From Heterotrichella gracilis (taxonomy: Eukaryota > Sar > Xanthophyceae > Tribonematales > Xanthonemataceae), in contig JAULBX010027052.1 of NCBI GenBank assembly GCA_032358255.1, forward strand, positions 155,134-219,133: a DNA stretch of 64,000 nucleotides, written 5' to 3'. The translations under genes were made by a program, and so were the position numbers. The notes beneath the pieces are model-generated. The model was not told the DNA's origin. It ran no database searches and saw nothing but the letters and a program-made list of their open reading frames with translations. Position 1 is the stretch's first letter. Every line of letters starts with the position of its first letter. Positions 1 through 49,422 of this stretch are shown here, piece by piece.

Positions 1-3000
1 GAGCATGTAGGCCCCAGCGAGCAGGCCTTCGCTGGCGTCAGGGCCTGCGGGTGGGGCGTAATGGGTGTGGGGATGGGGCGGGGGTAAAGGGGCGCATGTG
101 CAATTGCAGGGGTCCCATTGTGGGAGCCATGCATCAACCACAGGAAGCAAGGGCCACACGCTCGACAAGAAGTAGCGCATATACCTGAGAGCGTAGAGAT
201 TCAATATTTGCATGACCACATCACACACACACAGAGCTCGCAAATCCAACCCTTCTTTTCCCTTGCCTTGCCCCAGATACACGCCCCAACTCATCCCTTC
301 CCCGCCCCTCACCATTCCCACCCCCCGCCCCCTTCGCTGCCGCCGCAGCAGCAGCAGCCGCGGCATTGGCCGCCGACGCCAGCATGGCCTCATGCAGCTG
401 CACCTGCAGCTCCTCGCTGACGTCAGCATCCAGCAGCGCCACGTCAGCGCTGATGTCAGCATGCGCCAGCTCAGCAGGGGGGATGGCGTTGGCCAGGGCG
501 CGCAGGGCGAAGGCCACCACCGCGGGGACAAGGCAGGGGAAGCGTTTTATTGCGCGCTCCACCAGGGAGGCGGCGCGATCCCTGACCAACTTGTGGACAA
601 GAGAGGGGGTGTGGTGAGCAACTGTGTATTGGACATAATTCCGACTGTGGCAAGTCAACTATCAACCCTATTGCATTTCTTTTGTGATTGTGCACCATGG
701 CTTGAAGGCTGTATACGCGTGAGCCCAGAATGGCGCAACAACAACAAAGAAGCCTTAAACCTAGACAAATCCCTCCCTCAACCTTATCTAGGATACAGCA
801 CATGCACCAACCCCCCCACCCTTACCAGGTAGCTGTGCACGCTGAGCCTCAGCGCCACCCCCACCATCCGCCGAACCTCCACCGACACATCCCCCACCGC
901 CAGCGCAGGCAGCGAGGGGGACAGGAAGGGGCGGAAGGAGGCCTGGGAGGCGCGATACAGGAGGTGGAGGTAGGTGCGCTCAACAGCAAGCCAGCGGGGG
1001 CGGCGGCGGCGGAAGGGGAACGTGTTATCGGGGTCCAACCCAACCTGCAGGGGAGGTAATGGGGGGGAGTTTAGGTTTGGTTAGGGTATTCCAGCGGGGG
1101 CTGCTGCGGCGGCGGGGAACGTGTTATCAGGTTCAAACCCAACCTGCAATGGAAGGATTCTTTTCAAAGTTTGTTGAGGGGTTTCTGTGACCTCGGGATC
1201 CGCCACCGCGCTGTCACCATTTCTTTAGGGTTCAGTTGGAACCTTTTCACTCATTTCTCAATGCACCATCCCACATTGCACAAACCCATATCTCACGAAC
1301 ATCAAAACCCTCAGGCTGGAGTCATTCAACCCTAAGGAACTCCCGCGCACCTCTCTGTACAGCACCCCGCTCACTGCAGGCTCAGCAATCGCACTGTCAT
1401 CCGCATCCCATGCCGCCTTCCCCTGCGCCATCTCACTATACTCCCCCTGACCAATGCTCAGCACCGAGTCGGAAACCCTAAGCATCAGCCCTAGGGTTTC
1501 GCTGTCCAGGGCGCCGGCTGCTGCTGCTGCTGCTGTGGCCAGGGCGGTGGCGGCGGTGGCGCGGGCGGTGGGGAGGGGGATGGGGGGCCCAAGCTCGCCA
1601 ACCAGCGTGAGGGGGGTGATGGAGGGGGATACTGGAGGGGAGGAGAGGGGAGGGGGGCGGGGTGAGTGGGTTGTGGCAGAGATGGGTTTGGGAAGCAGCA
1701 TTGCATGTGCGTTTGAAAAGGTCAATAAGACAACAAATCAAATCAGACACACAAACACAGAGGCTGCAGCAACAAGATTCTATACCAAGCGCTACAGCAA
1801 GTGCGAACAATCCAGGGTTCAGGGTTTAGGGTTTAGGGTTTTAGGGTTTGGGGTTTTAAATTTTGCGCCGCACCCCCCTGCGCCACCCCGCAGTCCCCAA
1901 GCGTGCTCCTCGCCCCCCCAACCACCCCCTCCACCTCCAGCAGCAGTGCCCTGAGCTCCTCCCTCAGGGGGCGCGTGACAGCGGGGACGGTTGCAGGGGA
2001 GGTCAGCAGTGCGGCGATGCGCTCACAAGGCGCCAGCAGGTAGTGGTGCACCAGCTGGGTGGCAAACTCGATCTGCGGGTGGGTAGGTGGGTGGGTGGGA
2101 AGGGTGTGGCAGGGGAAGTGACTGGTGGAGGGGACGGAAGACATGGCAGCGGAAACACAAACGTAGAAAGCAGAATGGCAATGTACCATACGACACATGT
2201 AACTCGAACATGAACATGAACAAAGGGAGGAGCATGCGACTGTGAATATCCCCCCAATCACATCTTCCCAAAACCCCAAATTGCACGTGCATCTGTTGTG
2301 GAATCAATCCTTGGCCCTTCAAGATTCTTCCATCCCCCTCACCTCCTGGGGCGAAGGCACATGCCAGGTAGGCCTGGTGGCGCAGCCTGTCCCCTTGCGA
2401 TCCACCCAGGGCTCAATGAGGGTCCCCTCGGGGGTGGACATTGCGTCTGGGGCCCCAAATTGGTCCAAGGGGTAGTACGACACAAGGGCGCCCATGAGGG
2501 AGGTTAGCAGCTTGGAGGCGGCGTCCTGGATGGGCTGCGGTGGGGGTGGGGGGGTGCGGTTGGGTGGGGAATGATGGTATGGTGTGAAAGGTGGTGGTGG
2601 TATGGGACATTGGCTGGTAAGAGTGGATGGTGAGTGGAGGGGATGGATGGCGATGGGTGCATGTAAGGTTGGGGTGCATAGGATGGCAGTGGTTGGGGCG
2701 GTGATGCTTTGAATATTAGTGGGACGAGTGCGGAGAAAGGGAATGCATAGATCACAGCAGTATTGTGACCCTCCTGCTGCGCTGCTGCAACCGCTGATGC
2801 CACCGCTGCTCCTGAGTATGGCACACCCTCGTAATCCAGAAAAACCCTAGTAGTGTATAGTAAACCCTAAACCCTCACCTGTGACCTGCTTGCGAAGCAT
2901 GCATCCATTGCCGCCACCAGGCTTTGCCTGAAGGGCATGATAGCTGTCCCCATGTGGAATACCAGGGAGGAGATGAGGCCCAGGTGCCAGCGCAGGGTGG

Positions 3001-6000
3001 ACTCCTGGACCTGAGGAGGATGGGGGGGTGAAGGGGGGGATTTTAGGGACCAAGGCGCCGGGTGTTGGTGATGGCGGTGGTGGTGGGGAGGCATGCTCAC
3101 CAGCTACATACAAAGTCTGCGTAATCAACCCCTACCAGGCCATTATCAACCTCACAAGCCCTAGCACACACCTAAATGTGCAGCTCGAAGATGACGGAAA
3201 TCACTGGAAAAACCAAGTACATCTTTACATTGTCCTTGACTTGCAGCATTCCAGACCTATCCTTGCGCAGCCCCTCACCTTTGACGGCGCCCTCCCCTCC
3301 AGCCCAGGCAGCTCCCCCTGCAGCGCCTCCAGCAGGGGGGAGAGCATGCAGTCAGCGCAGGCGGGGGGGTCGGCCCACGCCGCGGCGTTGCACAGCACCG
3401 ACACGTCAGCCGCCACCGAGGGGAGGGTGGTGGTGGTGATGAAGCGGGCGGTGAGGCGCAGCAGGCGTGCGCGGGGGTTGGGTGGCAGGCGGCACACCAG
3501 CAGCTCCACCATGGGCCTGCGGGTGGTAGGGTGGTGGTGTGGTTGCGTGGCGGTGTTGGGTGTGGTGGTGGTGAGTGTTCTCAAGAGCTGCTGTGTGGGA
3601 TTGCTATCTGTACTGTACAATGTGGCGTTTGGAGCAGGGTTTGCCAATAGGGTATCAACATCAACCAACCAGCATGCACAAACAAACATAACAATAAATA
3701 GTGGACCATGCTTGTAAAAGGATACAAAAGGCTTAGAGGAGTTTAAAAGGAAGGCCACGTGCATGGACATCCTTGATGGAAGCACATGCAAGCTGTGCCA
3801 CCTCTGCTTAAGACGCGCGAACCCAGCAAGCCAATCATATAACGCCCCCTGCGCTGAATACCATTTCCTCCCCTCCCACCTGAACATGGAGTTACCCCCC
3901 ATCAGGAAGGACGCCCCACTTGACTCCGCCTGCCTGCCCTGGCCCGAAACGTGCTCGGGGGTGTCCAAATTTGTCAGAATTGCAAAAATTCTGGCCATGA
4001 GCTCCTCCACCCAGTCATCGCAATACAGCGGGAGCTGGCCGGGACCAAATTCGCCCACCTCCTCGCCCCCACATTCCTGCACAAGATGAAAAGAGTATTA
4101 CGACCCCTTTGGGCAACTGATAGCGGGACCTGGCCGGGCCCAAGTTGGCCCACATCCTCTCCGCCACCCTTCCTGCATAATTAATGAGATTAATGTGATA
4201 TTGATATAATTACACGCCCCTCAGCAACTCCCGTCCAACGCTGCCAATATATATATGATTGTGGAAGGCTGACTGCCAATCCTGCCTCATTTGCTGAAAC
4301 AATGAAATCCTGGCCAACAGATTGTACGGGCCATGCCCATCAATTCCCGAAAAACCACCATCATTGCAGCCGCCACAGCAACCCCAATACCACTACGCAA
4401 GTACCCTCGCACACCTTGAGCTCCCCCACGCACGACAGCACCGTGCAGTAGAAGCGAAACACCGCCAGCGTCTTGGGAGGGTCATTGGCATCAATCCCCG
4501 GGAGAACCGCCATCACCGCAGCAGCCACAGCACCCGCAGCTGACTCAGCAACCCCCCCTGCCCCCTCCCCTTCGGCTTGGTTTCCCGCCTCCCCCCCTGC
4601 CGCCCACCCCGCCAGTAGCAGTGGTCGTGTGCACATGCCCAGGGTGGTGATGGCGGTGGCAAGCTGGTGGGTGGCGGTGAGGGTGGCGAGGGCGGCCTGG
4701 GGGTGGGGGGTGGGGGTCGAGTGAGGCGGGGTTTATTCAAGGTGGGGTGTGAGGAGGAAAGGTCTTTGATTGTGGGTGTGGGGTGGTCTACCTCTCGCTG
4801 CTTAAATGCCCCCATGGGCGCCAGGTGCCGCATCCTCGCCGCACGCACTCACGATGACAGGATTCCAGTATACCAATGGATAAACCAGGTACAATTTCAG
4901 ACACCCATGGGCAACCTCTGGCCAAGATTGATGCCCACATGATTCCCACCACCACCCTACAACACTGCACCCCACGCACCATGAACCTCTTGTGCACCAG
5001 GGGCAGTACGATAGTTGGCGCCAGGTAGGACATCTCGGTCAGCGCAACGCAGGAGGTGTTCATAAGGTGGTGGTCCTGCGTGTGGGGGGAAATACTGTTA
5101 ATAAACCCTACGGAACCCTTAGGAAACCCTAGGAGCATCTGCCAGGGCCCTGGCCAATGACCACCTTTCTCCTCTTAATTGTGTCTGGTATTGCAGCATT
5201 TTGTTTAGTGTACTTGGATGATCGTGAACGTAATTGATATCGAAACCCTACCTTGGCGTACTGCCCTGCAGCCGCCAGCCGCACCACCAACCCAGCCGCC
5301 TCCCTCCACTGCTCAGGTGAAAGCGGCCTCCTCCTCACACCACCACCGGCCGCACCCGCATCCACCACCCCCTCCTCCACCTCCATTGGCTGGCTGTGGC
5401 TGGGAGTGTCCTCGCTGCGTGGCTTGTTCTCCTTGGTCACCCGCTTGGTGAGGTGCTTGGCCAGGGAAGACAGGAAGTTGGTGAGAGAGGAGGTCCACCT
5501 GGGGGAATGGGCAGGGGAAAAGGACGTTTCAGACCCTAGGGTTCGTGCTGCGGGGGGACGGGTGTGGTGGCGGTAAGGCACCAAGTAGCGTTGGGAGGCA
5601 TGCCAACATTTCCTGTATCAGTGATCTTGTCATAACCCTCATGCCAGCCCTGCCAAAACCGGCCCAAAACCCTTCACGCCTCCCATTCCAAGCCCTCATC
5701 GAAACATGCCCAAACCCTACTCAAACCCTACCTGCCCGAGTTGCTAGGGTGATAATACTGCTCCATGAGCGTGACCACCCTCCCCAGCGCCTCCCCTGCA
5801 GGGTCGATTCCATCACCCCCCCTGCCCAGCAGGTACACCGCCGCCTTCCCGGCGCGTGCTGACCGTGATGTTGCCTCCCCTAGGAAGAGGAGGTGCACAT
5901 AGGAGGGGGCGGGGCTGCCTGCAAAGACATGGGGTGTACGTTTAGGGTTTAGGGTTTGTATGTAAGGTTTTTGCCGGACCTTGACGTGGCCTCCCCTAGA

Positions 6001-8935
6001 AAGAATAGGTGCACATCAAAGGGGACGGGTTAACCTGCGCACGGAGAGATTCCCAGGTTCTCATTGGGTTTTCTATTGCAATCGTGGCGTATCCTTCACA
6101 TACTACTCAGGTCTGGAAGCGACCCGCTACACACACATACAGGTACCAATATGCACCACAGACACACTCAGAGCGTCTATGGCCCCATCACCCTCTTAAC
6201 TTCCCGTGGCAACACCCTTGGTTGAATTACCGCAACCAACACACCCAACATTGCGCTCTCCCAGGCAGACAAAAAACACCAGGGTATCTTGCTAACAAGC
6301 CCGCCAAGGGTCATCCCTTCCCTCCTCCTCACCGAATGGCACGCTCCCTGAGGCGCTCCCCACCGGCACCTGGAAGTGCCACATGAACAGCGTGAACAGC
6401 CGAGGCACCAGCGGCTGCCAGTCAATCAGGCCTGCACCACAAGGGGAGAAAGTGTGAGCGGGGGGTCAGGGACTCAAACGGGAGATTTATGTCAGGCCAA
6501 GCAATTGTATCATGGTATATTGTGCAGATCCCATATGGATCACAAATGTGGGTGTTACAACCCCGATATGTCAGAACCCCATATGGCGCAGATGTTGGTG
6601 TCAAACCCCTAGCTCAAAACCCTTACCTAGGGTGTCGTGCTTGGCCCACCTGGCCCACAGGTTCATCATGAGCGCGTCCCACACGGGGCAGTGCACCACC
6701 CGCCCCCACAGGGCCAGCATGGCGGGTGCCCAGGTGTGCCAGGGGGGGTGGGGGTGGTTGGGGGAGGGAGAGGGGAGCAGAAGCACCAGCCAGCCAAGCG
6801 CCTGCAGGGATGCGTGTGGGGGAGTCACGTTGTGCGTGGCAAGGGCGGTAATAACTAATAACTTCTTCATTAAATCTGTACTACACTGTCACAGAAGACT
6901 ACCTAAATGCATTTCAGCAGACCAGCCAGAGACATGCATAGCTAAAAACAAATCATAGCTCTTAATTATAAATTTATGTAAATTTGCCACCAGACCTGTC
7001 CTGCCTTCAAGCCAATTCGGTGAATTCACACGCAACATTTAAAATCCCTGTTCACCCCTCCTCACCTCGAATGCCCCTGGCTTGAGAATGTCCTGCGCGC
7101 GAGGCCAAAACTCGTCCCACACCTCCTCAGTGGCACCAGGGGGGAAAAAGCGGCGGCAGCGGCGCACCAAGCGGGTCAGTATGTCGCGCCGGTTCTCCAG
7201 AATGGTGGCGCCTGGGGTGCGGCACCAGAAAGTCTGATTTATATCATTTGACCCCCAAAAACATACAGAAATTGAAATTGATTAAATTAAATTATGCGAC
7301 AATTGCAGTCATAGCCCACCCCAGTGGCGGTGGGAATGCACCGGGCATGCATCGTCCTATATAGTTTGATTAGGGTAGTCGCCAATGTTGGTGCATTTGT
7401 CACTGGCGTCGTGTTTGTCAGCAAGGAAGACCAGCCTGTCCCAATGTGTGACCATCCCATGTGAGCTCCACAAATGAACCAGCAGAAAATCTTACAAAAA
7501 CCTGAAAGAAATACACATTAAAACAAGGTATTCAGGGCAAAACAATGATCGGCACCTACCCTGGTACTCTGTCATGGGCTTGAGGTGGAGGTCTACCAGC
7601 ATGGCGTGCAGGGGGCGCCAGGGTATGACCAGGGACACTTTGCGCCGGTAGTGGCGCAGGAGGGTCAGGACCACGCTGCCCCAGCGCACCTGGGAGGTGG
7701 GATGGGGGGGTACGAGGGGGGGTGAATGACAGGAGATCATTGCCCCCATCTGGGTGTGTGCGGGGGTGCAAATGTTATGACAGGGGATGAGTGTTCCACC
7801 AGGCAAGAGCAGACCTATGGCGGCCAAACCAGGTTCTCAATTTGATTACTTATAAGCAAAATAAAGGGAGCGAAACAACATGAGCAAGGCAATTGCAGTG
7901 CATTCAATTATTGATGGCCAATGCATTGCACCATTTTAGGCATGAAAAATACCCAGGCAAGCGGCTATGGCATGGCGGTGGGCTGGTGGCATTTTGTTTT
8001 GAAGTTTAGGGTTTAGGCTGTAGGGTTAATTTTGGTGCTGACCTGTGCCGGTATATCACCATGGGAGGACAGCACGATATCCAGTAGGGTGTACACCAGC
8101 TGCTCCACGTCGCCATAGTCATAATCCACCTTAGTGCTCAGCAGGCTACAGGGTGGAGAAAGGGGGGAAATTTGAGCAGGTCACCAGTGACAGGGGAGGG
8201 AAGTGTGAGGAGATGACCAGGACAGGGCCTGGGCTCAATACGCCATGACAGAGGGCGATGGGAGCATCCACATTCTTACTATCTAGCGTTGACTAACAAC
8301 AAGCGGCATTCTTTTCTGGTATTTAGCGTTCTTAGCGTTTTTTTAAATATGCCCGAACTTTGGTTGGGGAAATCCGTGGGGTGGAGTGCATGCACCGCTA
8401 GGCATGAAGGTGCTGGAATGTCGATGCCGTAACCGGTGTGGAGATGATTTGACTTCTTCCCCTTCGGTAAACAAGGAACACCTTGGACAATAAAAATTGG
8501 GTTCCAATTATCCTTGCAATGTATCGTGCCTAACTACTCAGGGCGGTGCTGCATGGTTTAGTCGTGAGTATAGTTTTGCCATATGCATGCACAAGATCCA
8601 CGAAACGCCCAGCAAAAAAATGCGCGTATTTTCAAGCGAAAAGAAACTTCGATGACATAGCATACATATAGTCAGCTTGCACCTAGATAGCACTCGCAAG
8701 GTGACGCTAGCAATATTTTCCGTGAGGGACATGATGGGCATGCTATGCATGCATTGGCCACTCACACATTGCACGGCGATATCCACTTCAGGGTCTGGTG
8801 GCTTGCACCCCGCTGTCCCTTGACGCCCTGCCATTCCTCCGACACGGCTTGCACCAGAGCCTTGAAGCGTTTTGGCTCCTCGTCCTTTGCTTTTATGGCC
8901 AGGTGCTCTGGCAACCACTCACGGAACACTGTCAT
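1..8935 (-). CDS. PSME4: Proteasome activator PA200 / PSME4 / Blm10 (partial, 19 exons, 3' end outside window)
   Basis: HEAT-repeat cap that binds the 20S proteasome in nucleus and cytosol. Exons (minus strand, 5' to 3'): 8766-8935, 8043-8145, 7560-7689, 7066-7211, 6627-6801, 6333-6431, 5732-5918, 5252-5498, 4980-5075, 4415-4696, 3880-4076, 3279-3516, 2879-3010, 2343-2525, 1874-2072, 1351-1631, 826-1044, 313-589, 1-44. All are GT-AG and every junction keeps phase, giving about 1135 codons of an expected ~1800. The start has an in-frame TAG just upstream. Blocks recognised against human PSME4 include VIPWRPLHAMLVDL (human ELPWRPLYDMVE), IDWQPLVPRLF, YYHPSNSGRW, VMAVLPGIDANDP and WHVPSPQE. The C-terminal third lies off the window. 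Divergent from NUF2. Introns hold exon echoes at 1091-1152, 4121-4183 and 5979-6040. Confidence 0.93.
1091..1152 (-). repeat. Exon echo: PSME4 exon 17 acceptor edge
   Basis: Repeats 991-1054 (CCAGCGGGGGCGGC..., AACGTGTTATC, CCAACCTGCA) about 100 bases upstream in gene sense, including the acceptor AG, with scattered changes. It lies in the intron before exon 17. Confidence 0.85.
1813..1857 (+). repeat. Interstitial telomere-like array (TTTAGGG)
   Basis: GGGTTCAGGGTTTAGGGTTT and further degenerate units lie next to the PSME4 exon 15 donor. Similar short arrays are at 2858-2876, 22314-22346, 22867-22885, 22948-22976, 23044-23074, 38758-38780 and elsewhere, almost all inside introns. Confidence 0.9.
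4121..4183 (-). repeat. Exon echo: PSME4 exon 11 acceptor edge
   Basis: Repeats 4024-4086 (GCGGGAGCTGGCCGGGACC and the CTTCCTGCA acceptor) about 97 bases upstream of the real acceptor in gene sense. Confidence 0.85.
5979..6040 (-). repeat. Exon echo: PSME4 exon 7 acceptor edge
   Basis: Shares GCCTCCCCTAGAAAGAATAGG and the TGCACAT...CCTGC acceptor with 5870-5925, about 120 bases away. A TTTAGGG pair at 5940-5957 lies between the two copies. Confidence 0.8.
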
Positions 8936-9700: not shown

Positions 9701-12700
9701 ATGGGGTCGTCCTACGTGTTCCCTATCATCGACAACCATGAGATACTTGCTTGCTTGGCGGAGATGGACCTCCTGGTGACGGAGGGCCAGCTAACAAAGC
9801 CTATGCCAGAGATCGTACGGCCCATCTACGAGAGCGTGGTGACAGCTCTCATGGGCATTTCCAGGTAAATAGTTGGCCAGTTCCGTGGTTCAGCAAGCTT
9901 TACCAACGCCTCAGACCAAGCAAGAGTTGAGGATGCCATGTTTCCTCGTTCCACCCGCAGGGAGGAGCTGCAACAACCTGTTTTTGCTGCAATTGACACC
10001 CTTGAATACCCAGAGCTGCACGACGAGTCCATCCCAACGCTGGCCTTCATGTACCACCTCAACCGGTTAATGCTGGCCTGTGGGGTCAAGGACTTCACAA
10101 TGAAGGTAACTGCCTTCTCCTCCCACACCAATCTCCCATCTGGTGACCGTTCTGCACCACACCTTACCCTTGCAAACCCTCCTTGGGTAAGCAGCTTCTG
10201 CCCCACCACACTCCCCGCCTCACCAAACGCCACCAACCAGGACCAGCCTGCACCCCACCTTCACGCCACCACACCCCTGCAATTCACCCCTCCATGGCAG
10301 CACCCTGCACCACCATCACCGCACTCCCCACCTCCAATGCCACCCACCCCTCAACACCCCAGGACCTGTACAAGCCCGACCCCGCGCGGCTGCGTCGCAA
10401 CCTGAGCGCCATCATCAACTTTGCCAAGTACCGCGAGGAGAAGCTGGTGCCCTACACCGAGATGCAGGGCGAGCTGGAGGTGCTGCTGGAGGAGCGGGTG
10501 GAGCTGGAGGCGCTCAGGCAGCAGCTGGTGGGTGCGGTGGAGGGTGTTTGGACTAGAATTTGTTGCAAAGCGAGGTGAGGTTTGAGGGTTTGTTGCAAAG
10601 CGAGGTGAGGGTTAAAGGTTTGGTGCAAAAGCGAGCTGGAGGGAGCTCAGGCAACAGCTGGTGGGTGCGGTGGTGGGGGGCGGACGGAGGGGGAAAGGAC
10701 ACAGGTTGTGTACGCGGAAAACGCACATGCGGGGACCAAGCATGGGTGTGGCACAGCGAGTGGTGTGGAGACAACGAGAACGGCGTGTTGCATGTGGGTG
10801 TGCACAAACTGAGCACGGGGATTGACATGGCTATCTTACACGACATTCTTACAGGGGGGAGTACATTGCATTGCTATCAGCTTTGCATGTGGCTAGGGTG
10901 CATAGACAGGCCGCTAAGGCTGCGGGACTTAGGGTCTAGGGTTTAGCCCCAAGCACATGCAGCACTTGCCTTCACCCACATGTGCACACTGCAAATGCTG
11001 CGCCAGTTCGGGCACCCATGCTGCGGCCCGTGGCAGAAGCGACTGCGCACCTTTGCCAAGGGTTGCATGCACCGGCACTAGTCTGCTGTTCCTTAGGGCG
11101 CATAGAATTTGGGGTTGCATGCATAGCTTGTCCTGTCGCACCAGCATTGGAGCTGATTATTTGCCTGGCTGCCCTTCTGCCAATAAAGGATCCGGGGTTT
11201 ATGCATGGCTTGCCTCTGTGGCAACAACATCGGTACTGAATTTGTGTCCTGCTACCTCTCAGGATGAGGAGCTGCACCACTTGAAATTGGAACGGGCAGC
11301 AGAGGAGCCGGTACGTTGCACAACTCTGGCCTGTCCCGTCTGATGCTGCACCACTTCTTGCAATTTGCACGGCATGCCTTGGTGGATGTGGCAAAAATAC
11401 CCTCGCGGTGTGGTAGTACCCAGGGCAGCCTGGGTGGAACCCTGTGCAGCTGGTTGCATGCGACCGCATGATGGCACAAGACCAATGAAATGGCTTGAAC
11501 TCTGCCAGTATTTGCTGGCACGCTTGTGCGAGACTGCCTGCGAATCCGGCTGCATGGCCAGAATGCACGTGGCATGTAACTAAGTACATATCATGACGTG
11601 CTCCCCTGGCTGCAGGAGGCTGCCCGCCTGGAGGCTGAGGTTGCCGAGCTGTACGCTGAGAACCAGCAGCTGAACAAGCAGCAAACAGCCATCAACAGCG
11701 AGGTGCGGGGCCTGAAGCAGCAGTCCAACCAGGCCGCTGACCAGGCCTCCAGCGCCAAGTTCAAGCTGCTGGAGGCGCAGCAGGAGGGGGAGCGGCTGCG
11801 CAGCCAGATTGTGGAGGTGGGTGGGGGAGAGGGGGGAGGCGGGAGGTGTTTCCGCATGGGTGGCTGAGTATAGGTGGGCAGGAGGGGAGTTGCTGCGGCA
11901 CGTGCATGTATGGGATGGAGGGGTTCGTTGAGCCCATGGCGCTTCTCTTGCAGCAGTAAAATCCCACCATGGGTAGTGGAGTACACCCACATCTGTAAGG
12001 GTTGTAAGGCGTGTACCTTCTCATCAGCATGCCCATTGTTGAGAAGTGCAAATTCACAGATTTTCGTGATAATCTTCGAATTTGTATTTCATTGCATATT
12101 ATGATCATATTGTGTGGAGTGACTATGGGCATGGCGGCAGCAATTGCATTGCACACGCGCGTACACACACATACACACACACACCAGCTCCTGGACCCTC
12201 ACACGCACCTTCTCCCCTGCCCAGTCGCCCGAGAAGGTCCAGCAGGCACTGGAGGAGATCCAGGCCGCTGTTGAGCGTGAGCGGGCCCTGGTGGCTGAGG
12301 CAGACAGGCGGTCGAGGGACCTGCAGACGCGGCTTGACAACATTAACAAGGTGGGGATGATACAGAACAGCTTTTAAAAAAACGATTTCTATGCATTTTC
12401 TAGCCTTTTCGTTCATATTGGTCAATGCCAATGAATCAAGTTGATCAAGTTCCCAAAATTCCTTCATGTTCATTGAAAGGTAGAATCGTACGCTGCTCTA
12501 ATCGCAATGCCATTGATCACGATTACAACATAAATCTGCACCCATTTGGTTCCCACCTCATCGCCCCCCACCTCCAGATCCCAGGTTGGCATTCCCAATG
12601 CTGTGTAGCCAATCCAGCAATCCCTTCCGTTTCCCACCCTTCCAGGTTGAGAGGGAAATCCCCAAAATCATCCTGCGCATGTCGGAGGTGGAAACCATGT

Positions 12701-13783
12701 TGCTGTTCAGCTGTGTAGCCCATGCACCAATCCCCTCCCCCTTGCCTCCCCTCCAGGTTGAGAAGGAGGTTGCCAAGATCATCCTGCTCATGTCTGAGGT
12801 TGAGACCGAAATCAGCCGCAAGAAGGGCGTGTCGCGCAAGGCCAAGGAGGTGCGGCGGGACATCGGCGCGGGCGAGCAGGAGGCGCAGCAGCTGGCGGCC
12901 AAGCAGCAGCACCTCAAGCGGCAGCAGCAGGCGCTGGCGGAGAGGCTGCAGCGGCTGGAACACCAGGTGGGTGGTTAGGTTTGCACATCTTGGCGTTGAC
13001 GTGGATTTGTGCCCGTTAGTATTTACATGGATATGAATTAGCAATGGATTTACTGTCATTGCCATTGGGGTGGCGGTGGAAATGGGGGGAGCCTGGCGGG
13101 TTGCAGAGGGTGGAGCAACAGGTGGGGGTACAGAGGGAGGGGGGGGGGTGGCGGTGTGGGGGGAGACTTTGCAGTGGAGATCCCCCACAATCATTTGCTC
13201 ACTGTCCCTCCCGGACCACGCGTAGGGCGCCCTGAAGAAGGAGGCTGCTGCGTCTGTTGTTGAGGAGCAGCTGAAGGACAAGGAGGCAATTGCGGCGGAG
13301 CATGCGGCCACAATGGCCAAGATCGCAGAGAATGAGGCGCTGGTGAGGGGCGGGGGTGTGGGGAAAGGCCATGCAGCTCCATCATTTATTCTGAGTTTTC
13401 ATGTCTGTTTTCCTTCCGGATTTTCTGCCTGGATTTCAAAGTGTGTTTATTACCGTGTAAAATACCCTAAACATGTTATTGATCAGTTAGTGTTGCAATT
13501 CGCGCCTGGTATGCTGGTTCCAACTGGACACTTTTGCTGATGGCGCGCAGCACAAAGCACTCCACGGCCACTGCCATGCCCACCTGCCTTACCCGCCTAA
13601 TCTCCTCCACCCCCCTTTCCCCAGATGCGCGCCATGCGCGACAAGGTGCGCGAGGTCCAGGCCGCGCACGCCGCCCAGGTTGCCGCTGTGCTTCAGCGCT
13701 ACGACCAGCTCAAGCGGGAGGTGGCGGACTACCACGCGGGGCTGGAGGAGGCAATGATGGGGTGCTCGCAGATGGCGTGCTGA
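9701..13783 (+). CDS. NUF2: Kinetochore protein NUF2 (9 exons)
   Basis: Subunit of the NDC80 complex, which ties kinetochores to spindle microtubules in mitosis. Exons: 9701-9864, 9961-10105, 10363-10527, 11263-11310, 11616-11816, 12225-12350, 12757-12966, 13226-13342, 13625-13783; they join in phase to 444 aa (human 464). Residues 1 to about 150 form the calponin-homology-like head (SSYVFPIIDNHEILACL near the N-terminus, then NLSAIINFAKYREEKL matching human FLSGIINFIHFREACR). The rest is continuous coiled coil rich in E, Q, K and A, including SPEKVQQALEEIQ, which lines up with human SPEKLKNYKEKM. The start at 9701 is preferred because it aligns with family N-termini; an in-frame ATG at 9611 is an alternative. 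Introns 3 and 6 hold exon echoes. Confidence 0.93.
10553..10675 (+). repeat. Exon echo: NUF2 exon 3 donor edge, with a short triplicate
   Basis: 10633-10675 repeats the end of exon 3 and its donor (GAGCTGGAG...CTCAGGCAACAGCTGGTGGG). Before it, TTGTTGCAAAGCGAGGTGAG occurs twice (from 10559 and 10588), followed by a third related start. Confidence 0.8.
12152..12184 (+). repeat. AC dinucleotide microsatellite in NUF2 intron 5
   Basis: CACGCGCGTACACACACATA followed by ACACACACACACC. Confidence 0.9.
12590..12700 (+). repeat. Exon echo: NUF2 exon 7 acceptor edge
   Basis: A unit of about 111 bases: CTGTGTAGCC, then CCCTTCCAG, then GTTGAGAGGGAAATCCCCAA copies the real intron end and exon 7 start at 12701-12810. 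The echo codes VEREIPKIILRMSEVET against the real VEKEVAKIILLMSEVET but has no good donor. Confidence 0.85.
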
Positions 13784-35698: not shown

Positions 35699-38600
35699 TC
35701 AACTCGCTTGCGCTGCGGCCAGCTGTGCTTCTAGTTCGGCCACACGGGCCTCCAGCTCAGCAACCCTGCAGCAGATGTGTGGGTGTGGGTGGACGTGGGC
35801 GGGTGTGGGAAGAGGGGGGACATGATTGGCATAGGGTCGCAAGCAGACAAGGGGGGCACAGACGTAAATTCTGCTGGATTCCTAATCCCTGTATCTCAAT
35901 TTGATACGGCCCAATGCATGCGCAGGCACACAACCTGTCCTCCTTTGCCCCCATACCACCCTGTCATCGTACAAGTGCAAGGACAAGCACCACACGGGGC
36001 ATCTGAAACCTGGATCATTAACCCTAATCGTAACACCCCACGCACCTATTGGTCCGCTGCTTCTCTGTCTGCACCTGTGGCGTGTAGGGCGTGAGCAGCA
36101 TCTTGCTGAACTGCTTGAGGGCATCCGTGCCGCGCACCTGCAAGCCAAGAAACCACACACTGTTGGCCAAAGCGCCCACAAGGACCGACATGCGCCCAAG
36201 TGCACCCACATCCATGCAATTATCGCACCGTGAGCAGCGGTTTCTGAAATGAGTGCCACCACACAACCGCCTCAGTCACGCGGTGCTAATACAAACCAAC
36301 CGCCAGACCCCACACGGTGACAAAAATATACCCTAGCGACACCGGCCTCGCCATGTCGCATGAAAAATGAAAGGAAGGTGCGAACAATGGCAGTAACTCA
36401 AGAGTGTAGGGGTTAAATACGTGGCACCTTATAACCTCCTCCAGCAGGGACGGCACCGCTTATGTGGACACAGGTGAAAGCAAGGGGTTTGCTGCTAGTG
36501 GATTGTGACTACAGCAATTCTTTCAGTGCACGCCGCCCTCCCCTCTTCCTCTAGCAAGAGTACTAGCCTTATGTGAATGTGGGGCTAGAGGTTTGGGCTA
36601 GGGTTTGCGGGCATACAGCCCTCACCTCTTCCTTGCAAGGGCTGCAGCCTTGTTTACCGCACTACGGGGCTAGGGGATTGGGGCTAGGGTTTCAAGTGCA
36701 CGCAGCCCTTACCTCCTGATCTAGCAGGTGTAGCAGCGTAATGTGCAACGGGTTCTAGGGTTTTATGCGTGTGAAGGAGGCTAAGGTTTTCTGTGCATGC
36801 CGCCCTTACCTCTTCCTCCAGCAGGGGCAGCAGCGTAATGTTGAAGTCCTCGTACAGCTCGTAGAACTGCGCCAGGTACTTTTGCTGCATGCGCATGCGG
36901 GCGGCAAGCAGGCGGGAGGAGGAGACTGCGGGAAGGGGGGCGATGCGTAATTTAGACTGTGAATGGCAGGGGAGAGAGGACACAAGAAAGGGGAGAGATG
37001 GAAGCGATTAACGATAGGAGATAAGGAGAAATCACATGCCGGAGGTTGGTACCCGAGCAATAGGGGCGCATTAAGGGCAAGCCTATCATTTCATCCTCTA
37101 CTTCACCCCACCACATCACCACCACAACCCTCCGTCTTCATCTCCAATGCCCCCACCCAAGTCCCCTCCCCTCCCACCCCCTGCCTCACTTTTACTGTGA
37201 ACAGCACCTGGTTAACCCCATACGTTTTGCATGTCCATACCAGAGCGCACCACCCCCCCACCCCCACCCCACCCACCTTCGGTGTCGAACAGCACCTGGT
37301 TGACCACGATGTTGTGTGTATCCATGTTGAACCGCGCCAGCTCTTGGGGCATTCCATCACCGCCACCACCACCACCCTCCCAGAGGTATATTGACCCATG
37401 ATACTACACGTATGCTGTTACTATATTATATATCCCTGCTCACACCCTCCCTGCAACCCCACCCCACCCACCCACCTTCGGTGTCAAACAGCACCTGGTT
37501 GACCACAATGTTGTGCGTGTCCATGTCAAAGCGCGCCAGCTCCTGCACCAGGCGCTCCGTCTCGTACAGCGACAGGAACTCAGGGATGCACACGCACACA
37601 AAGGTGGTGAGGTCGGGGTCCTTGAACTGCGTGTTCACCTCCTCAACAACGGCCTGCAAGGGGGGGAAAGGAAGGGAAGGGGGGTTTAGTGGGGAACAGG
37701 GGGTAGGTTGTCTTTTTGGGGGGGATATCACTTGGCGTCCCACTGGAGAAGATTTATTGGACTGCGCATGCACATGACTTTTGCTTCCCCCTTCAACCAC
37801 TGTCTCAACAACCCAATGCGCGGTTCCCACCCACCTTGAGCTGATCCAGCTTTGTCATCAGCTGTTCCTGCATGTCCCCCAGCCCCGCGCCCCCCAGCAG
37901 GGCTGACACCTGGCCGATGACCCCTCCAAAGGCCCCCCGCAGGCTCATCACCTTGGACAGCCCCTTCTCTAGCAAGGTGGGGAACTGGAGCAGCCTGGGA
38001 GGGGGAGGGGGATGGGGGTCAAGTGTGGGGGCATGAATCTTGGCCGCTGAAGGGGAGGGGCCGGGATGGGTGATGATGGGGAGACTTACAAAAGGAGGGT
38101 GCTGTGCCATTAAATCGCTGCTGAGCCAGTCACAGTACAAATTCCATTACCACTTTACGTCACACAGGATGTACTACTTATTATTACACGCGTACCGGTA
38201 ACAAAGCCAGATCAGCAATCAGCCTTGCACAAGCATGCGCCACCCGTCCCTATCCTGGCATTGCTTTTATCATTTTTTGATGTACTACAATATAAACGTA
38301 ATCATAATGCGTATTACCACAGCAGAATACAAAACAACAGAATAAATGCTAATGTGACCGCAGCAACCTTTCCATAGGCAACTCCCGGGTGGGGTGACTC
38401 CCGATCCCCAGGAGGCGTGCAAAGAACAACTTGCCCGCTAAATGCAGAAATTCACCGCCACAGCGCCTGCGGGGGGACTAGAATAGGAATATTCTTGTCC
38501 CCCTGGTGCTGCAAGGTGTCCTCCCCCCTTTCACTCACCGTAACGTGTGCCCCGTGGGCGCGGTGTCAAACACGATGCAGCTGTAGTCCAGGCTCTGCAC

Positions 38601-39603: not shown

Positions 39604-40429
39604 GGCTAGGCCCGGGGGCCCGGGAAGGGTTTGTTGGTGCGTGGGGCTGCTGATGGGGTCGAGTGCCGGGGGTGGAGTGGGATTTGGGAGGGGAGGAGGG
39701 AGTGGGTGTGGGTTCCAAGGCTGTTTGGCAGGGACAGGGGAACGGCTGGATCTGTTGAGAATGTGGCGATGACGGAGAGCACTAGTACTGTACGTGTGAG
39801 ATTAGCTTGTCATGTTCAATGCTATTAAGTGGCATAAGTAGCAGCAAGTACCAAGCTTGCTGCATATTGGGCGCACCACAGTTGCCCAGCGATCCAAACC
39901 CTTCAGTAGGGTAAACTTGGAGCGGGTGACCTTACGGCCCGTAAGTTACGGGTCAGGGGGTTGTGTTTTATATTGAATTGAGTGTAGGTTGAGTTACAAG
40001 CAGCATTGAATTGAGTGTAGGTTGAGTTACAAGCAGCAATGCAACACAACATTTTTAAAGTCAGCAAAACAAGGATGCTGCAGGCACACACAGTATTTTA
40101 ATGAAAGCACCCGATGGCACAGCATCACTCGATAACCCTGTGACAGGTAGATGTCTAAACACATTACAAATGAATCAAAACCTCCTTCCCTTGTTGTGTA
40201 CATAGCCCTGTGTCCACTTGATCCACCACCCGCCACCACCCACCACCACCACCACCACCACCAAACCGGCACCATCCACCACACAAGCACACCCACCCCC
40301 CACCCCCAGCCTGTACATGACGTCCCAACATTACCCAGCCAGGGTTGATGTTCGCATTGGATTCAACAGAAGCTCTGTTTGATAAGCCTCCTACCACTCA
40401 TTGGCACCAACCATGCTGCCCACCACCAA

Positions 40430-40620
40430 AAACACAACCCTCCACATCACTGCTCTCAGCCTGGCACCACCCTTGCGTAAGCGCCCCACACAGCGCCACC
40501 AGACTTGCCATGGACCTCAGGCAATATGCAGCTTCCCAAACTTGCCGTACAGCACCTTGGCCGCAGCCTCCTCCCTCAAAGAGCTGATCTCGAGCACCCA
40601 CCAACCTCCATCCCAGCATC
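40430..40620 (-). repeat. Duplicate 2 of TMEM205-like terminal exon (more decayed)
   Basis: A third, more diverged copy of the same exon part; YGKFGKLH and the AESS-like segment can still be read on the minus strand. Increasing divergence with distance suggests successive duplication. Confidence 0.7.
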
Positions 40621-40641
40621 CATGCCTCACACCACACACCC

Positions 40642-40800
40642 CGCTCAGCCTAGCACCACCCTCGCCGCCAGCCACCAGCCGTGCGCCAGCGCCCCGCACA
40701 GCACCACCAGGTTAGCCACCGAGCTCAGCCCGTGCAGCTTGCCAAACTTGCCGTACAGCGCCTTGATCTCAACCATCACCTCCCGAGCAACTGTTCCTAA
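40642..40800 (-). repeat. Duplicate 1 of TMEM205-like terminal exon (includes stop region)
   Basis: Nearly repeats 40836-40985 of the real terminal exon, including the region of the stop codon, the GKFGKLH coding segment and the AHGW segment, but diverges at its 5' end and has no intact acceptor. It is a downstream tandem copy about 190 bases away. Confidence 0.8.
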
Positions 40801-40835
40801 GCACCAGCCCCCGCGTCACCCTCCACACGCCCCGC

Positions 40836-42570
40836 TCAGCCCAGCACCATCCTCGCCGCCAGCCACCAGCCGTGCGCCAGCGCCCCGCACAGCACCACCA
40901 GGTTCGCCACCGAGCTCAGCCCGTGCAGCTTGCCAAACTTGCCGTACAGCGCCTTGATCTGCGCCTCGTCCCGGGGAGAGCTGTTCTCGAGCGCATAGCG
41001 CTCAAACATCACCCGGGTAGCTGCAGGCTCGATGAACAGCAGGTTGGCCAGGGTGCCAGCCAGGGACACGCCTGCAAGTGTGAATAGGGTTTGGAATTAG
41101 GGTTTTAATCATGAGTTCAGGGGACCCAGGGGTAATGAACAGCAGGTTGCGGCCAGGGACACACCTGCGAGGGTGAGTAGGGTTTGGAATTAGGGTTGGG
41201 ATCATGAGTTCAGGGGACCCAGGCTCGATGAGCAGCAGGTTTGGATCAGTGTTTTGGTAGAGGTGTAGGGTTGAGGTTTTGTACATTAAGGCTTTATGCG
41301 CAGCAGGTCGGTGTTGCTTCCAATAACACAGCAGGGTCCAGCATAGCATTGATTTTACTAGTATGTTTGCAATTCAAATGTGCAACTGCTGTTACAGTGC
41401 ACGTACCCAGGGTTATTGCCGGCCCATTCCCAATGCCTCCGGGCCCGAAAGCCAGTGTGGCGCCCATGATGGTGATGCATGAGGCAGTGACGCCAAAGTA
41501 CAGGGGGAAAAGCTTGGACTGCGGGCAGGGGAGGGAATCAGACGTCAGCTTGGGTTTTGATGACGGATTGCATTGACAATGAAGCTTCATGAACATCTGC
41601 CTGGGTGAATTCCTGCATACAATGACCTACACAGCACCCATTGGAGACCCTAGCCCCAACCCTAGCGTCCTCACATGCACCTTGCCAAACATATGCCTGG
41701 GAGGGTTCCTGAACATGGTGACCTAATCAAGCCCCTTGCCAAACCCTAACCCCAACCCTAGGCTCATAACCTGCACCTTGCCGAACATCTGCCTGGGCCG
41801 GTCCCTGAACATGGTGACCCTCGCCCAAACCCTAACCCAACCCTAGCGTTCTCACCTGCACCTTCCCGAACATCTGCCTGGGCCGGCCCCTGAACATGGT
41901 GACCCTCGCCAAACCCTAACCCAGCCCTAGGGTTCTCACCTGCACCTTGCCAAACATCTGCCTGGGCAGGTTTTTGAACATGGTGATGCCAGCCACAAAG
42001 GTGGTCCACACAGTGGAGCCCAGCCAGGTGGCAAAGGCAAACAGGTGGATGAATGAGGCGGCCTTGAAGGAAAGCTCGGCGCTGCCACGGCCCGCTGCCA
42101 GGCACACGGCGGCGATGGCCACGATGCGCACCTGCGTGGGTGGGATTACCTTTTAGTTAGGGTTGGGGTTGGCTACTGTAGGGTTTGTTACAGGGTTTGA
42201 AGGAGAAATGGACGCTGCCACGGCACACTGCAAATATGAAGCATGCAACAGCATCACCGACCCCATGCAACCGGCACAATCAAACCAACACGATCCCAAC
42301 CACCCCACCCCTACCCACCCCGCAAAACCCAGAACTCACGTATTTGTTGTTTGCCAGGGAGGGCTTGAGCATGTCCCCTTTCACGTCCGCGCCATTCTCC
42401 TCCCCTGAGCTTGTCACCCCCTCCGTGGCCCTGCCGATGCTCTCAGCGGCGGCAGCGGCGGCAGCAGCGGCCTCCTCCACCGCGTGCTGCGCCTCGTCGG
42501 CAAGGGACTCGGTCACATGCTGCTCTGCCTCAACCTCGCTGGCCATGGGGGTGCGGCGGCGGGGGGCCAT
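40836..42570 (-). CDS. TMEM205-like (DUF4149) multi-pass membrane protein (4 exons)
   Basis: Exons: 42340-42570, 41940-42131, 41407-41518, 40836-41071; in phase, 256 aa. Residues 1-77 are a soluble, acidic, Ala-rich region (EEAAAAAAAAAESIG). From there the TMEM205 pattern is clear: FIHLFAFATWLGSTVWTTFV, MFKNLPRQMFGKVQSKLFP, LYFGVTASC, ANLLFIEPAATRVMFERY, LYGKFGKLHGLSSVANLVV and a last helix GALAHGWWLAARMVL, that is four membrane helices with the conserved EP in helix 3. The human relative is linked to platinum resistance; the plant and algal role is not established. Introns carry four copies of the exon 2 donor edge and two of the exon 4 acceptor edge, and the terminal exon is duplicated downstream. 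Confidence 0.9.
41130..41255 (-). repeat. Two exon echoes of the TMEM205-like exon 4 acceptor edge
   Basis: GAACAGCAGGTTGCGGCCAG...ACACACCTGCGAGGGTGA at 41136 and a shorter CTCGATGAGCAGCAGGTTTG at 41222. The spacer TAGGGTTTGGAATTAGGGTT then CATGAGTTCAGGGGACCCAGG is duplicated almost exactly, so the unit is about 85 bases. Confidence 0.92.
41584..41925 (-). repeat. Four exon echoes of the TMEM205-like exon 2 donor edge
   Basis: Copies start near 41588, 41678, 41771 and 41856; the real edge is at 41940. Each has CACCTTGCC.AACATCTGCC then TGGGC.GG...TGAACATGGTGA. The nearest two are almost identical, the farthest is decayed, and CCCTAACCC words lie between them. Confidence 0.95.
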
Positions 42571-46487: not shown

Positions 46488-47326
46488 GATATCGCTCAAC
46501 TCAGCTCCACTCAGCTCAGCTTGCAGTTGCCCGTATAGATTACTGGTAGTAATTACCAGTAATTATTGGGGGCCATGTACATGGTTAGACATCAATTGAG
46601 GAAGAAAGGGAAAAGGGAGCACACAAGCTTGTACTATCTAGGTAGAATAGTTTAGTAGTTTGTGCTGCAACAGCTGCAACAGTTGCATGCATGCAGACTT
46701 GCCTGTTGCAATGCATATTTGCCCGGAACAGGGTGTTACAAGCTTGGGAAGGTGTCACCTCACATCTCATGTAACCATTTAGGGTTTGCCCGCAGGAAAA
46801 AATCTGTTTAACAGTACATCAGCAGATTGCAACAACATAATGTGCGTTGACAATCATTTACATCAATACACGCTCAGTGTGCCCGTCCCATTGAGCTGAT
46901 ATGGCCAATTGATTCAATCCACTGCAGCCACTGTTGAGCCATTACCATGGACAGTGTAAAACAGTCTAGTTATGTGCTGTCATGTTAATCTCAGGTTCAA
47001 AATCTCTAGAGCTACAAGGGCTGACTGCAGAGGCATTTGTGGTGTCACACCACAAATGCCTCTGCCACACAGTGTTGTACCAAATAAATTGAATGAATAG
47101 ACCAGACGTGTACTGGCAATCGTCGCCAACCTTGCCTGAGTGTTGGATCGACCCTCACAGTCCAGCAAAGTACAAACCACTCACTAGCTGCAAGGAAAAC
47201 TGCCTTTTAGGGCCGTCTGATGGGTCTTGCTACCTCCCAGAACCCCACTGCCAAGGGTAAATGCAATGCAAAGTGGATGAGTGCGCTGCAGTCTGCCCTG
47301 AGCAAGTGTGCTCGAGTCTGTCCTGC
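46488..47326. other. Intergenic between convergent genes
   Basis: Holds two 3' ends. TGTAA at 46770-46774 (+) suits the unrecognised gene, 283 bases past its stop. TTACA at 46736-46740 suits the cyclophilin on the minus strand. The 39-base palindrome at 47027-47065 lies here. No coding frame is supported. Confidence 0.4.
47027..47065. repeat. Perfect 39-base palindrome
   Basis: Arms GCAGAGGCATTTGTGGTGT (47027-47045) and its exact reverse complement (47047-47065) are separated by one base. It lies 3' of both convergent genes and could form a strong RNA hairpin in either transcript or a DNA cruciform. Confidence 0.9.
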
Positions 47327-49422
47327 TCACTCCAGTATGCCTGCCTTGCCAATCAGCACTCGTGAGAATGGCCTGTTGAATGACTTCCCAGCAACCACCG
47401 CGCGCTTGTCACCAAACGTCCGCCCTGCCCTGCGGGGTGCACACACCAGGTGAGGATGCTGTGGCAATTGCTTCACCCTTGGGACGAAGCAATGCCTGGA
47501 AAGTACTTAAGCAGTCGTGGAATGGCAATTTGTGGTTCTGTGAACTGCGTATGCACAGATCGATATGCACAAGCGAGGGCACATGCAGCACCTTCACAAC
47601 CCCCTACTGCCACAGAACAGGTACACTGGCATGCATGCAGTTGGCTGTGGCGGTGCATTGTGACTACCGTGGTGCACGCAGTGTAGCCGGCACCATGGGA
47701 TGCAAGCATGGTCCACATACTGGCAGAAGAATGACCCTAAATGGGCCCGCAACTGGTGTAGGGGAAGTCTACTCCCTAAACCCTAATGTGGTTCCAGATA
47801 CCGGTAGAAGCGCCACCATGAACCCTAAATTTAACTAAGTCCACGTACTGGTAGAAGGGCGACCCTGTGTTGTCCTTCACTTTTGGGAGCTGCGCTATCC
47901 GCTCCACCACATCCATCCCCCCCACCACCCGACCCACAACCAGGTTGGTGGCATCAAGCTCGGGGCAGGGTGCCCTGGTAATGGTGAAGGCGGTGCCGTT
48001 GGGTACCTCCCCTGGCGTCTCTTGCACCGTGACAAGCTTCCCTTGGTAGGCGATCAGCTTCTCCTTCACCTCCCTGCAAGGTGGTGGGTTTAGAGTTTTG
48101 GGTTTCAGAACCAAAAGGGTTTAGGCGACCATGCCTCTCGTTTCCCAATTAGTAAGGTGGTAATGGGATGGGACCAGGCGATGTTCGCAACGAGTTGGCA
48201 GCGGCATTGGTGGTGGTGCATGTGTGGTCGTTCAGCCTCCAGCTTTGTAGCTTACTCCACCACAACAATTTGATGTAAGAAAAGTTTTGGCATACAAGCC
48301 GATTGCTTGGTTGTCGCTGCCTCCAGCGTGCATGGCAGCCAGGCACTGACAGACATGCTCTGCTGACAGGCAGCATAATAATGATAACACTGGTGGTTAC
48401 TAAGGACGTATTGTGCTATTAGGCTCCATGCACTGGCAGATGTGCGCCGCTGACAAGCCACTTGATGATTTGTAATGACAGAATTGACAAGTGTATACAG
48501 GCCTTCCCCCTACCGCCCCACCTTTCCTCGCTGGAGGTGACCACAATCGACACCACGCCTGCGCTGTCATGGCTGCGCTTCTGTTGTGCCAGCTCCTCCT
48601 CCAGCTGGTCGGTGGAGGCTCCTCCGGTGATGGGTGACTCGCCCCTGTCAGAGTATGATAGGCTCTTCACTCCGGCGTTGCGGATGTAGCCCTGCGGTAC
48701 AGAAAGAGCAAGGGTTCCTTAGGGTGTAACACAGGCAGAGGTAAGTTCCCAAGTGACAGGCAGAGAAAGGAAACTCTACGCGGCGTAGAGTGCTAATGTG
48801 GCATGGTGATGACCTCTCTGAGAGATGAGAGTGACTGAGGCTTACCTCGGTAAGGGAATCAAACTTTGACAGCTTGTAGGAAACCCCTTGCTTGCCCTTG
48901 GCCAGGTCAGCAAACCGTTGAGAGCCAACAGCAACATCACCGTACAGAGCAACAGTGATGCGCCCTATCTTTTCTTGGTCCACTTTCACATCGATGAACA
49001 CCTGCAAACAAACACGGGGTGTCCCAGTCTTAGGTGCCATGGGCATATGGGAGGTATCATGATACACACACACACACTGTGAGAGGTAATATACACGCGT
49101 TCCACGCTCGCGTCACCTGTCGGGATGCTTCCTGGTCGTTCCTCACAGCAGTCACACTGCTCGCTTCGGTGGCAACACTCTCTTCAGCAGCGCAAACGGG
49201 GGTGCAGAGCGCTGGAGAAATAGCCATCAAGCATGCCAATCCACCAGCGACAATACGATGCGCCCATTGCTCCCTAGCAGGTTCAGGATACGAGCACCCA
49301 GTTGTACAGCTTGCAAGGACTGGGGTCAAAGCCCTTCTTGAAGACTGCGAGCGGGAGGCGTTGGCACGATGGGGAGCGGCACAGATATTTAGCTGGGCCC
49401 CCAAGTGCACCTGGGCTTTCAT
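47327..49422 (-). CDS. Thylakoid-lumen cyclophilin-type peptidyl-prolyl isomerase, CYP26-2-like (5 exons)
   Basis: Peptidyl-prolyl cis-trans isomerase fold, probably in the thylakoid lumen. Exons: 49117-49422, 48846-49001, 48522-48691, 47849-48073, 47327-47429; in phase, 319 aa. The first ~80 residues look like a bipartite plastid leader: a basic Ser/Arg/Ala part, then RIVAGGLACLMAISPALC, then a cleavage-like VCAA. The domain begins VFIDVKVDQEKIGRITVALY. Diagnostic blocks include NLVVGRVVGGMDVVERIAQL, DNTGSPFY and the final exon FGDKRAVVAGKSFNRPFSRV, which fit plant CYP26-2/CYP28 rather than canonical CypA. The typical catalytic FHR.I pocket residues are not obvious, so activity may be weak or lost, as in several lumenal cyclophilins. 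The last exon was found from the conserved GDKRA block; two echoes of the exon 4 donor lie in the last intron. Confidence 0.88.
47705..47820 (-). repeat. Two exon echoes of the cyclophilin exon 4 donor edge
   Basis: CCACATACTGGCAGAAGAAT (47712) and GATACCGGTAGAAGCGCCACC (47798) copy CCACGTACTGGTAGAAGGGC at 47841. They supported placing the real donor at GTACGTGG. Confidence 0.7.

Follow-up and report, generated by a model that had tools for sequence, protein, structure and literature searches.

Can introns grow by gaining copies of the exon edges that flank them? Intron growth is usually ascribed to transposons and to neutral insertions and deletions. The question is raised by a 64,000-nucleotide (nt) stretch of the Heterotrichella gracilis genome (Xanthophyceae; GenBank assembly GCA_032358255.1, contig JAULBX010027052.1, positions 155,134 to 219,133 of the forward strand), hereafter the window. 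Of the 130 exon edges in nine genes modelled in it, 26 have copies in the neighbouring intron, 42 copies in all. The copies lie in PSME4, NUF2, FPS, DUF2009, GET3, a TMEM205-like gene and cyclophilin, the identical seven genes for which an initial annotation had claimed about 39. All results are from this one 64-kb window.

Excess, direction and spacing of the copies

Controls were run on eight of the genes, in which 41 copies, counted over exon part plus splice site, occupy 25 of 122 edges (14 donor and 11 acceptor). The same count found no copy in any of 20 shuffled replicates; in introns of other genes it averaged 0.55, with a maximum of 2. When a 60-nt probe taken only from the exon was compared with its own adjacent intron, 20 of the 122 edges (12 donor, 8 acceptor) scored at least 32; none of the 122 did so when the intron was shuffled once, or when each probe was set against a single intron drawn at random from another gene. 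Self-BLAST returned 28 local direct-repeat pairs scoring at least 50 and 37 scoring at least 40; five shuffles gave none at those scores. The ninth gene, cyclophilin, contributes a single donor copy in intron 4 (score 31). The initial annotation had proposed self-alignment of introns against their exons with shuffled controls; run inside the window, this upholds its view that the copies exceed chance.

The copies are directional, as had also been claimed: acceptor copies lie upstream and donor copies downstream of the real exon, and the only wrong-side match is at DUF2009 exon 3, which is 62 nt long so that its two edge probes overlap. The spacing of 80-110 bases given earlier describes the nearest mapped copy at 13 of the 23 edges with a mapped copy; the full range of nearest distances is 70-208 bases, and outer copies reach 279. 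In HSBP1 (two introns) and fasciclin (four introns) the edge-copy search found none, in agreement with the initial annotation.

Introns with copies are longer. Their median length is 394 bases (22 introns) against 282 in the 39 without (P = 1e-4), a difference of 112 bases, or about one unit, which fits the earlier claim that the process lengthens introns. Intron self-similarity at lags of 80-90 is conspicuous only in introns with copies. Intron lengths taken as unit multiples show no periodicity (Rayleigh-type test, P = 0.55).

Placement of duplications

Two undirected scans asked where duplications fall, irrespective of exon edges. An ungapped scan, with steps of 8-600 bases and low-complexity pairs removed, was made since self-BLAST gave no pair scoring at least 50 with a step below 91 despite the presence of exact 33-base repeats. 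At a score of at least 34 it yielded 56 pairs (34 edge, 15 intron, 6 intergenic, 1 exon), and shuffles yielded 0. The 34 edge pairs sit at 24 distinct coding edges, 23 of them splice edges and one a stop-codon end. The intron and intergenic pairs, both at 34 or more and at 30-34, lie inside edge arrays, are matches of heptamers, microsatellites (CCA-type) or splice consensus, or have steps below 50. A gapped scan gave the same picture: pairs touch an edge in 28 of 28 cases at a score of at least 50 and in 35 of 42 at 36 or more, and the seven off edges lie within arrays or match heptamers. Away from coding edges, for steps up to 600 across the 64-kb window, the scans revealed no independent duplication of step 50 or more other than microsatellites. 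Within this window the copies are restricted to coding edges.

The stop-codon end belongs to the TMEM205-like gene, whose last coding segment, stop codon included, has two further copies downstream (40440-40835). No splicing is involved there; therefore the common factor is the coding edge rather than the splice site, an argument that rests on one such array.

The copies probably arose by recurrent short tandem duplication at coding edges, filtered by selection and with some later homogenisation. Short duplications, mostly of about 80-145 bp per step, would recur and straddle the edge of a coding segment. A duplication internal to an exon would break the protein and be purged, whereas one at the edge would put its extra copy on the non-coding side, leaving the gene to work from the original junction while the intron or 3' region gained one unit. 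Repeated events, at times of two units together (about 190 bp), would build ladders; the copies would then decay, the real exon occasionally homogenising their exon part. Fill-in at staggered breaks or template switching could supply the enzymology. The scheme also presumes a duplication bias toward GC-rich coding DNA, the homogenisation itself, and the choice of which site is spliced.

The best-surviving competitor, which we still regard as unlikely, holds that duplications occur at random everywhere and that survivorship and detection leave only edge copies to be recognised. It likewise expects exon-internal duplications to be lost. Elsewhere in the window there are small tandem repeats whose steps measure 9-33 bases; a potato gene has both an edge-crossing and an 83-bp purely intronic duplication (PMC4974935); and about half of the arrays lack a recognisable spacer, so that old intron-only events could escape detection. 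It has to contend with the lack of any independent duplication of step 50 or more off the edges, although most would be detected by simulation: of simulated intron-only duplications of the same ages under gapped scoring, 91-100% are recovered at an echo identity of at least 0.80 and 65% at 0.77. Random placement of 85-115-base units puts 44-55% on an edge in genic DNA and 20-26% in all DNA. For 190-base units the figures are 75% and 38%, and because the random edge fraction is already so high such long units weigh less. At d = 97 (fractions 0.487 genic, 0.223 all DNA) the chance of 24 out of 24 edges, counting those of the undirected scan, is about 3e-8 or 2e-16, respectively, and for the 11 arrays with a demonstrable shared spacer alone it is 4e-4 or 7e-8; all these values treat the arrays as independent and are indicative only.

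Construction, decay and splice sites of the copies

A tandem duplication across a junction should repeat the exon edge, the splice site and the intron next to it, with order and strand unchanged. All three are recognisable in 11 of 25 arrays, in which at least one comparison of the intronic spacers reaches P ≤ 0.01, so the intron part was duplicated together with the exon sequence; the other arrays have no recognisable adjoining intron. The homology continues past the outermost copy (P ≤ 0.01) in NUF2 introns 6 and 7, at the FPS intron 8 donor, at the DUF2009 intron 3 donor and in DUF2009 intron 9. Ladders occur in GET3 intron 5, where copies stand 97, 184 and 267 bases off the junction, and in TMEM205 intron 2, where they stand at 84, 169 and 265; each has a fourth, more distant copy. 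The earlier proposal of local tandem duplication across splice junctions thus stands for the local pattern and the shared spacers, and falls short in that the process is not strictly splice-linked, as the stop-codon array shows, and does not explain every copy (FPS 17833-17882, below).

Decay had been said to rise with distance from the exon, and as a general statement this does not hold. Among ten multi-copy edges similarity falls clearly only in GET3 intron 4 and roughly in GET3 intron 5, while the farther copy is the closer match at four (DUF2009 introns 3, 8 and 11; TMEM205 intron 3). In DUF2009 intron 8 the copy at 186 bases (89%) outlies the one at 92, which has decayed further (73%). 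Apart from the shortest (14-nt), all copies diverge from the exon edge, by 2-27%. Mismatch rates at codon positions 1, 2 and 3 are 10.3, 7.6 and 21.7%, and all nine gaps in exon parts of copies are frame-breaking; together these indicate that the real exon is constrained and the copy mostly is not.

Several observations weigh against plain tandem duplication followed by free decay. For 14 of the 25 arrays every spacer comparison falls short of P ≤ 0.01. These include GET3 intron 4 and PSME4 intron 15, whose exon parts are 90% and 88% identical and for which plain duplication predicts visible spacer homology; the detection simulation presumes such homology too. Past the outermost copy the spacer is unrecognisable in others, for example FPS intron 9, TMEM205 intron 3 and PSME4 intron 15. 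At FPS 17833-17882 the copy and the exon edge share 98% identity, yet the copy's upstream flank matches that of the real acceptor poorly, and the copy further out (17741-17784) does share the real-acceptor flank; judged from the sequence, this pattern suggests exon-limited homogenisation or block copying. The ratio of third- to first- and second-position mismatches, about 2.4, exceeds our rough estimate of 1.6-1.8 for a freely decaying copy, and there may be some constraint on the copies or homogenisation of them. Selection does not explain the absence of purely intronic duplications, and the bias toward coding DNA is our supposition. DNA classed as intergenic includes genes left unannotated, and the evidence is that of a single window.

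With recurrent edge duplication still preferred, a stronger form is conceivable, though we incline against it: that small tandem duplications are made preferentially at coding-segment ends in this lineage rather than in introns or intergenic DNA, that serial edge copying is a main source of intron length, and that the real exon may refresh its copies by conversion.

The copies largely keep the appearance of splice sites. GT or AG is retained in 31 of 34 mapped copies, and a further seven stop short of the site. Copy sites are weaker on average than real ones, at 8.97 against 11.06 for donors (P = 0.02) and 6.09 against 11.08 for acceptors (P = 0.01); among mapped copies, 10 of the 23 donors and 3 of the 11 acceptors equal or exceed the real site in strength. 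Use of the copy is predicted to bring a frameshift or stop in 32 of the 34. Copies were considered as productive alternative sites and rejected, with just two of 34 keeping the frame without a stop. All gene models are predicted to splice without using any copy. This qualifies the claim of competing splice sites in the initial annotation; most would be of no use.

It is improbable that the copies are selected as decoy or regulatory sites, for instance to tune intron retention or nonsense-mediated decay. The retained GT and AG, the copies that match or exceed real strength, the third-position mismatch excess and the near-universal frameshift or stop, as expected of poison sites, would all suit such a role. 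Yet the copies are on average weaker, their dinucleotide retention may just reflect about 85% identity and alignment bias, their exon parts carry frame-breaking gaps, and the stop-codon array has no splice site to offer.

The introns have a marked composition. Their GC content is 53.0%, against 63.7% in exons. In the eight genes they are rich in G toward the 5' end and in C toward the 3' end, with a skew of +0.48 over the first tenth and -0.49 over the final one. The heptamer AAACCCT/AGGGTTT, of the plant and green-algal telomere type, occurs 47 times per orientation in the window where about 3-4 are expected. Its density per kb is 3.2 for introns, 0.19 for exons and 0.5-0.9 for other DNA. To us the gene content of the window, which is eukaryotic, suggested a green alga. 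In the sense orientation AGGGTTT lies in the first intron half in 29 of 32 cases, and AAACCCT tends to come later (second half 19 of 35, median 0.66).

Splice-proximal G- or C-rich tracts, or these telomere-like heptamers, might break or stall DNA and so drive the duplications, an idea to which we give slightly less credence than to decoy sites. The skew and the intronic concentration of heptamers, which lie in many spacers, accord with it, as does the larger number of G runs at donor edges with copies (2.8 versus 1.8, P = 0.04). Acceptor C runs (P = 0.70) and donor G fraction (P = 0.15), however, do not differ, nor is heptamer density distinguishable between introns with copies (3.85 per kb) and without (2.93; P = 0.18). 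The association of G tracts and telomere heptamers with the arrays is weak or absent.

Insertion of Introners (mobile introns), reported mainly in lineages that evolve rapidly, green algae among them (PMC9860276), or of other transposable elements is very improbable, as the copies match their own neighbouring exon and exon-edge probes reveal no one family across introns of different genes (0.55 against 41). Tandem repeats are difficult to assemble, but an assembly artefact is just as hard to credit for copies that, the 14-nt ones aside, diverge by 2-27% and carry frame-breaking gaps beside gene models that stay open.

Related systems, gene models and features

Tandem duplication crossing a splice junction has been described in isolated cases; what looks new is its density in the window and its confinement to edges. 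In a potato RdRp gene a tandem duplication over an intron-exon boundary created a new intron (Ma et al. 2016, PMC4974935). Its unit, consisting of intron end, 3' splice site and exon start, has the anatomy of the acceptor copies in the window; it was, however, one event giving a new spliced intron, whereas the window has 42 copies at 26 edges, mostly unusable, that accompany greater length of existing introns. A review (PMC3443670) tabulates 188 intron gains by tandem duplication. In the model it discusses (Hellsten 2011; Gao and Lynch 2009) local duplication with splice signals likewise alters intron structure, but there the exon interior is duplicated to give a new intron, while the units in the window straddle an existing junction and imply none. 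Novel intron positions in Drosophila (PMC2891723) include partial exon duplications of which one copy was later intronised; these are five probable cases among 31 novel positions and lie within the reading frame, and the available text describes no serial copies at edges of old introns.

Two reports bear on mechanism. Lipomyces stwintrons (PMC7138796) have a functional donor duplicated inside an existing intron, ascribed to staggered-break fill-in repair, though over 4-7 nt, compared with roughly 80-200 nt including about 13-70 nt of exon in the window. CST/Pol alpha-primase (PMC8355091) offers a general mechanism for small tandem duplications at staggered breaks, but from work in mouse cells on engineered breaks whose overhangs measured 43-50 nt, without involvement of coding edges in the part of the article available. 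Our literature search, whose coverage excluded most subscription journals, found in the accessible text no account of widespread or dense serial exon-edge copies in introns; neither PMC9860276, on Introners, nor PMC5966456, on the genome of a green alga, describes exon-edge copying in the portions available.

In this one 64-kb window a fifth of exon edges are duplicated and introns with copies are about one unit longer. Were this true genome-wide, the lineage would show spliceosome tolerance of many near-perfect decoy sites and would hold intermediate stages that link ordinary introns to the gain of introns or exons through tandem duplication.

The gene models comprise 74 exons and 65 introns, GT-AG throughout, and were annotated from open-frame continuity and splice consensus. 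The eight-gene set accounts for 69 exons and 61 GT-AG introns with no in-frame stops; NUF2 and FPS are on the plus strand, and PSME4 (partial), DUF2009, GET3, TMEM205-like/DUF4149, HSBP1 and fasciclin on the minus strand. A Pfam scan recognised all eight, as Nuf2, polyprenyl synthetase, PSME4 middle region, DUF2009 (over all 455 profile positions), ArsA/GET3, DUF4149, HSBP1 and fasciclin. The scan covered these eight only; the ninth gene has five exons and four introns, and we take it to be cyclophilin, following the initial annotation. Its copy was considered as a 3'-end copy of a four-exon gene, which was rejected when a fifth exon was found, making the copy donor-side. No relatives of the DUF2009 and GET3 proteins were found in the viral contigs searched, nor any of the DUF2009 protein in the genome contigs searched. 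Copies are listed in Table 1.

Table 1. Exon-edge copies and related duplications in the window (positions are those of the window)
Feature	Position	Strand	Remarks
Acceptor copy, PSME4 intron 15	1091..1148	-	real edge 1044; 88% identity, 54 nt exon part
Acceptor copy, PSME4 intron 9	4122..4180	-	real edge 4076
Copy of inner piece of PSME4 exon 9, intron 9 downstream	4338..4386	-	score 46; stops short of donor; outside the 42
Acceptor copy, PSME4 intron 5	5977..6029	-	real edge 5918
Donor copy, NUF2 intron 3	10633..10672	+	real edge 10527
Acceptor copy with intronic flank, NUF2 intron 6	12631..12696	+	real edge 12757
Donor copy (weak), NUF2 intron 7	13099..13126	+	real edge 12966
Acceptor copy, FPS intron 4	16328..16368	+	real edge 16424
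Three acceptor copies (17659-17689, 17741-17784, 17833-17882), FPS intron 7	17659..17882	+	real edge 17941
Donor copy with intronic flank, FPS intron 8	18194..18242	+	real edge 18114
Acceptor copy (short), FPS intron 8	18465..18497	+	real edge 18562
Two donor copies, 91-nt units, FPS intron 9	18745..18893	+	real edge 18702
Donor copy, DUF2009 intron 12	21400..21459	-	real edge 21553
Two donor-edge copies, DUF2009 intron 11	22202..22301	-	real edge 22347
Three donor copies, DUF2009 intron 10	22836..23032	-	real edge 23081
Donor copy about 208 nt from junction, DUF2009 intron 9	23486..23560	-	real edge 23697
Two donor copies (24164-24218, 73%; 24075-24146, 89%), DUF2009 intron 8	24075..24218	-	real edge 24265
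Acceptor copy (short, weak), DUF2009 intron 7	24494..24514	-	real edge 24413
Donor copy (short; GT lost), DUF2009 intron 7	24700..24721	-	real edge 24800
Acceptor copy, DUF2009 intron 3	26475..26531	-	real edge 26344
Two donor copies, DUF2009 intron 3	26698..26826	-	real edge 26864
Four donor-edge copies, ladder of about 83-97 nt, GET3 intron 5	36437..36744	-	real edge 36810
Two donor-edge copies, GET3 intron 4	37200..37346	-	real edge 37476
Two copies of TMEM205-like last coding segment with stop codon, downstream of gene	40440..40835	-	not splice-linked; outside the 42
Two acceptor-edge copies, TMEM205-like intron 3	41135..41241	-	real edge 41071
Four donor-edge copies, TMEM205-like intron 2	41592..41902	-	real edge 41940
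Acceptor copy, TMEM205-like intron 1	42197..42231	-	real edge 42131
Donor copy, cyclophilin intron 4	47711..47738	-	real edge 47849; score 31

Other repeats were noted in the window. Two similar palindromic stretches resembling miniature inverted-repeat transposable elements, with inverted CAGGGGTGTT...ATATATAAACCAG, were seen by eye at 27130-27190, in DUF2009 intron 2, and at 20450-20610, just downstream of DUF2009. An exact 33-bp tandem duplication lies at 39972-40038 between TMEM205-like and GET3, and a 30-bp repeat array at 10559-10643 follows the NUF2 exon 3 donor and precedes its copy.

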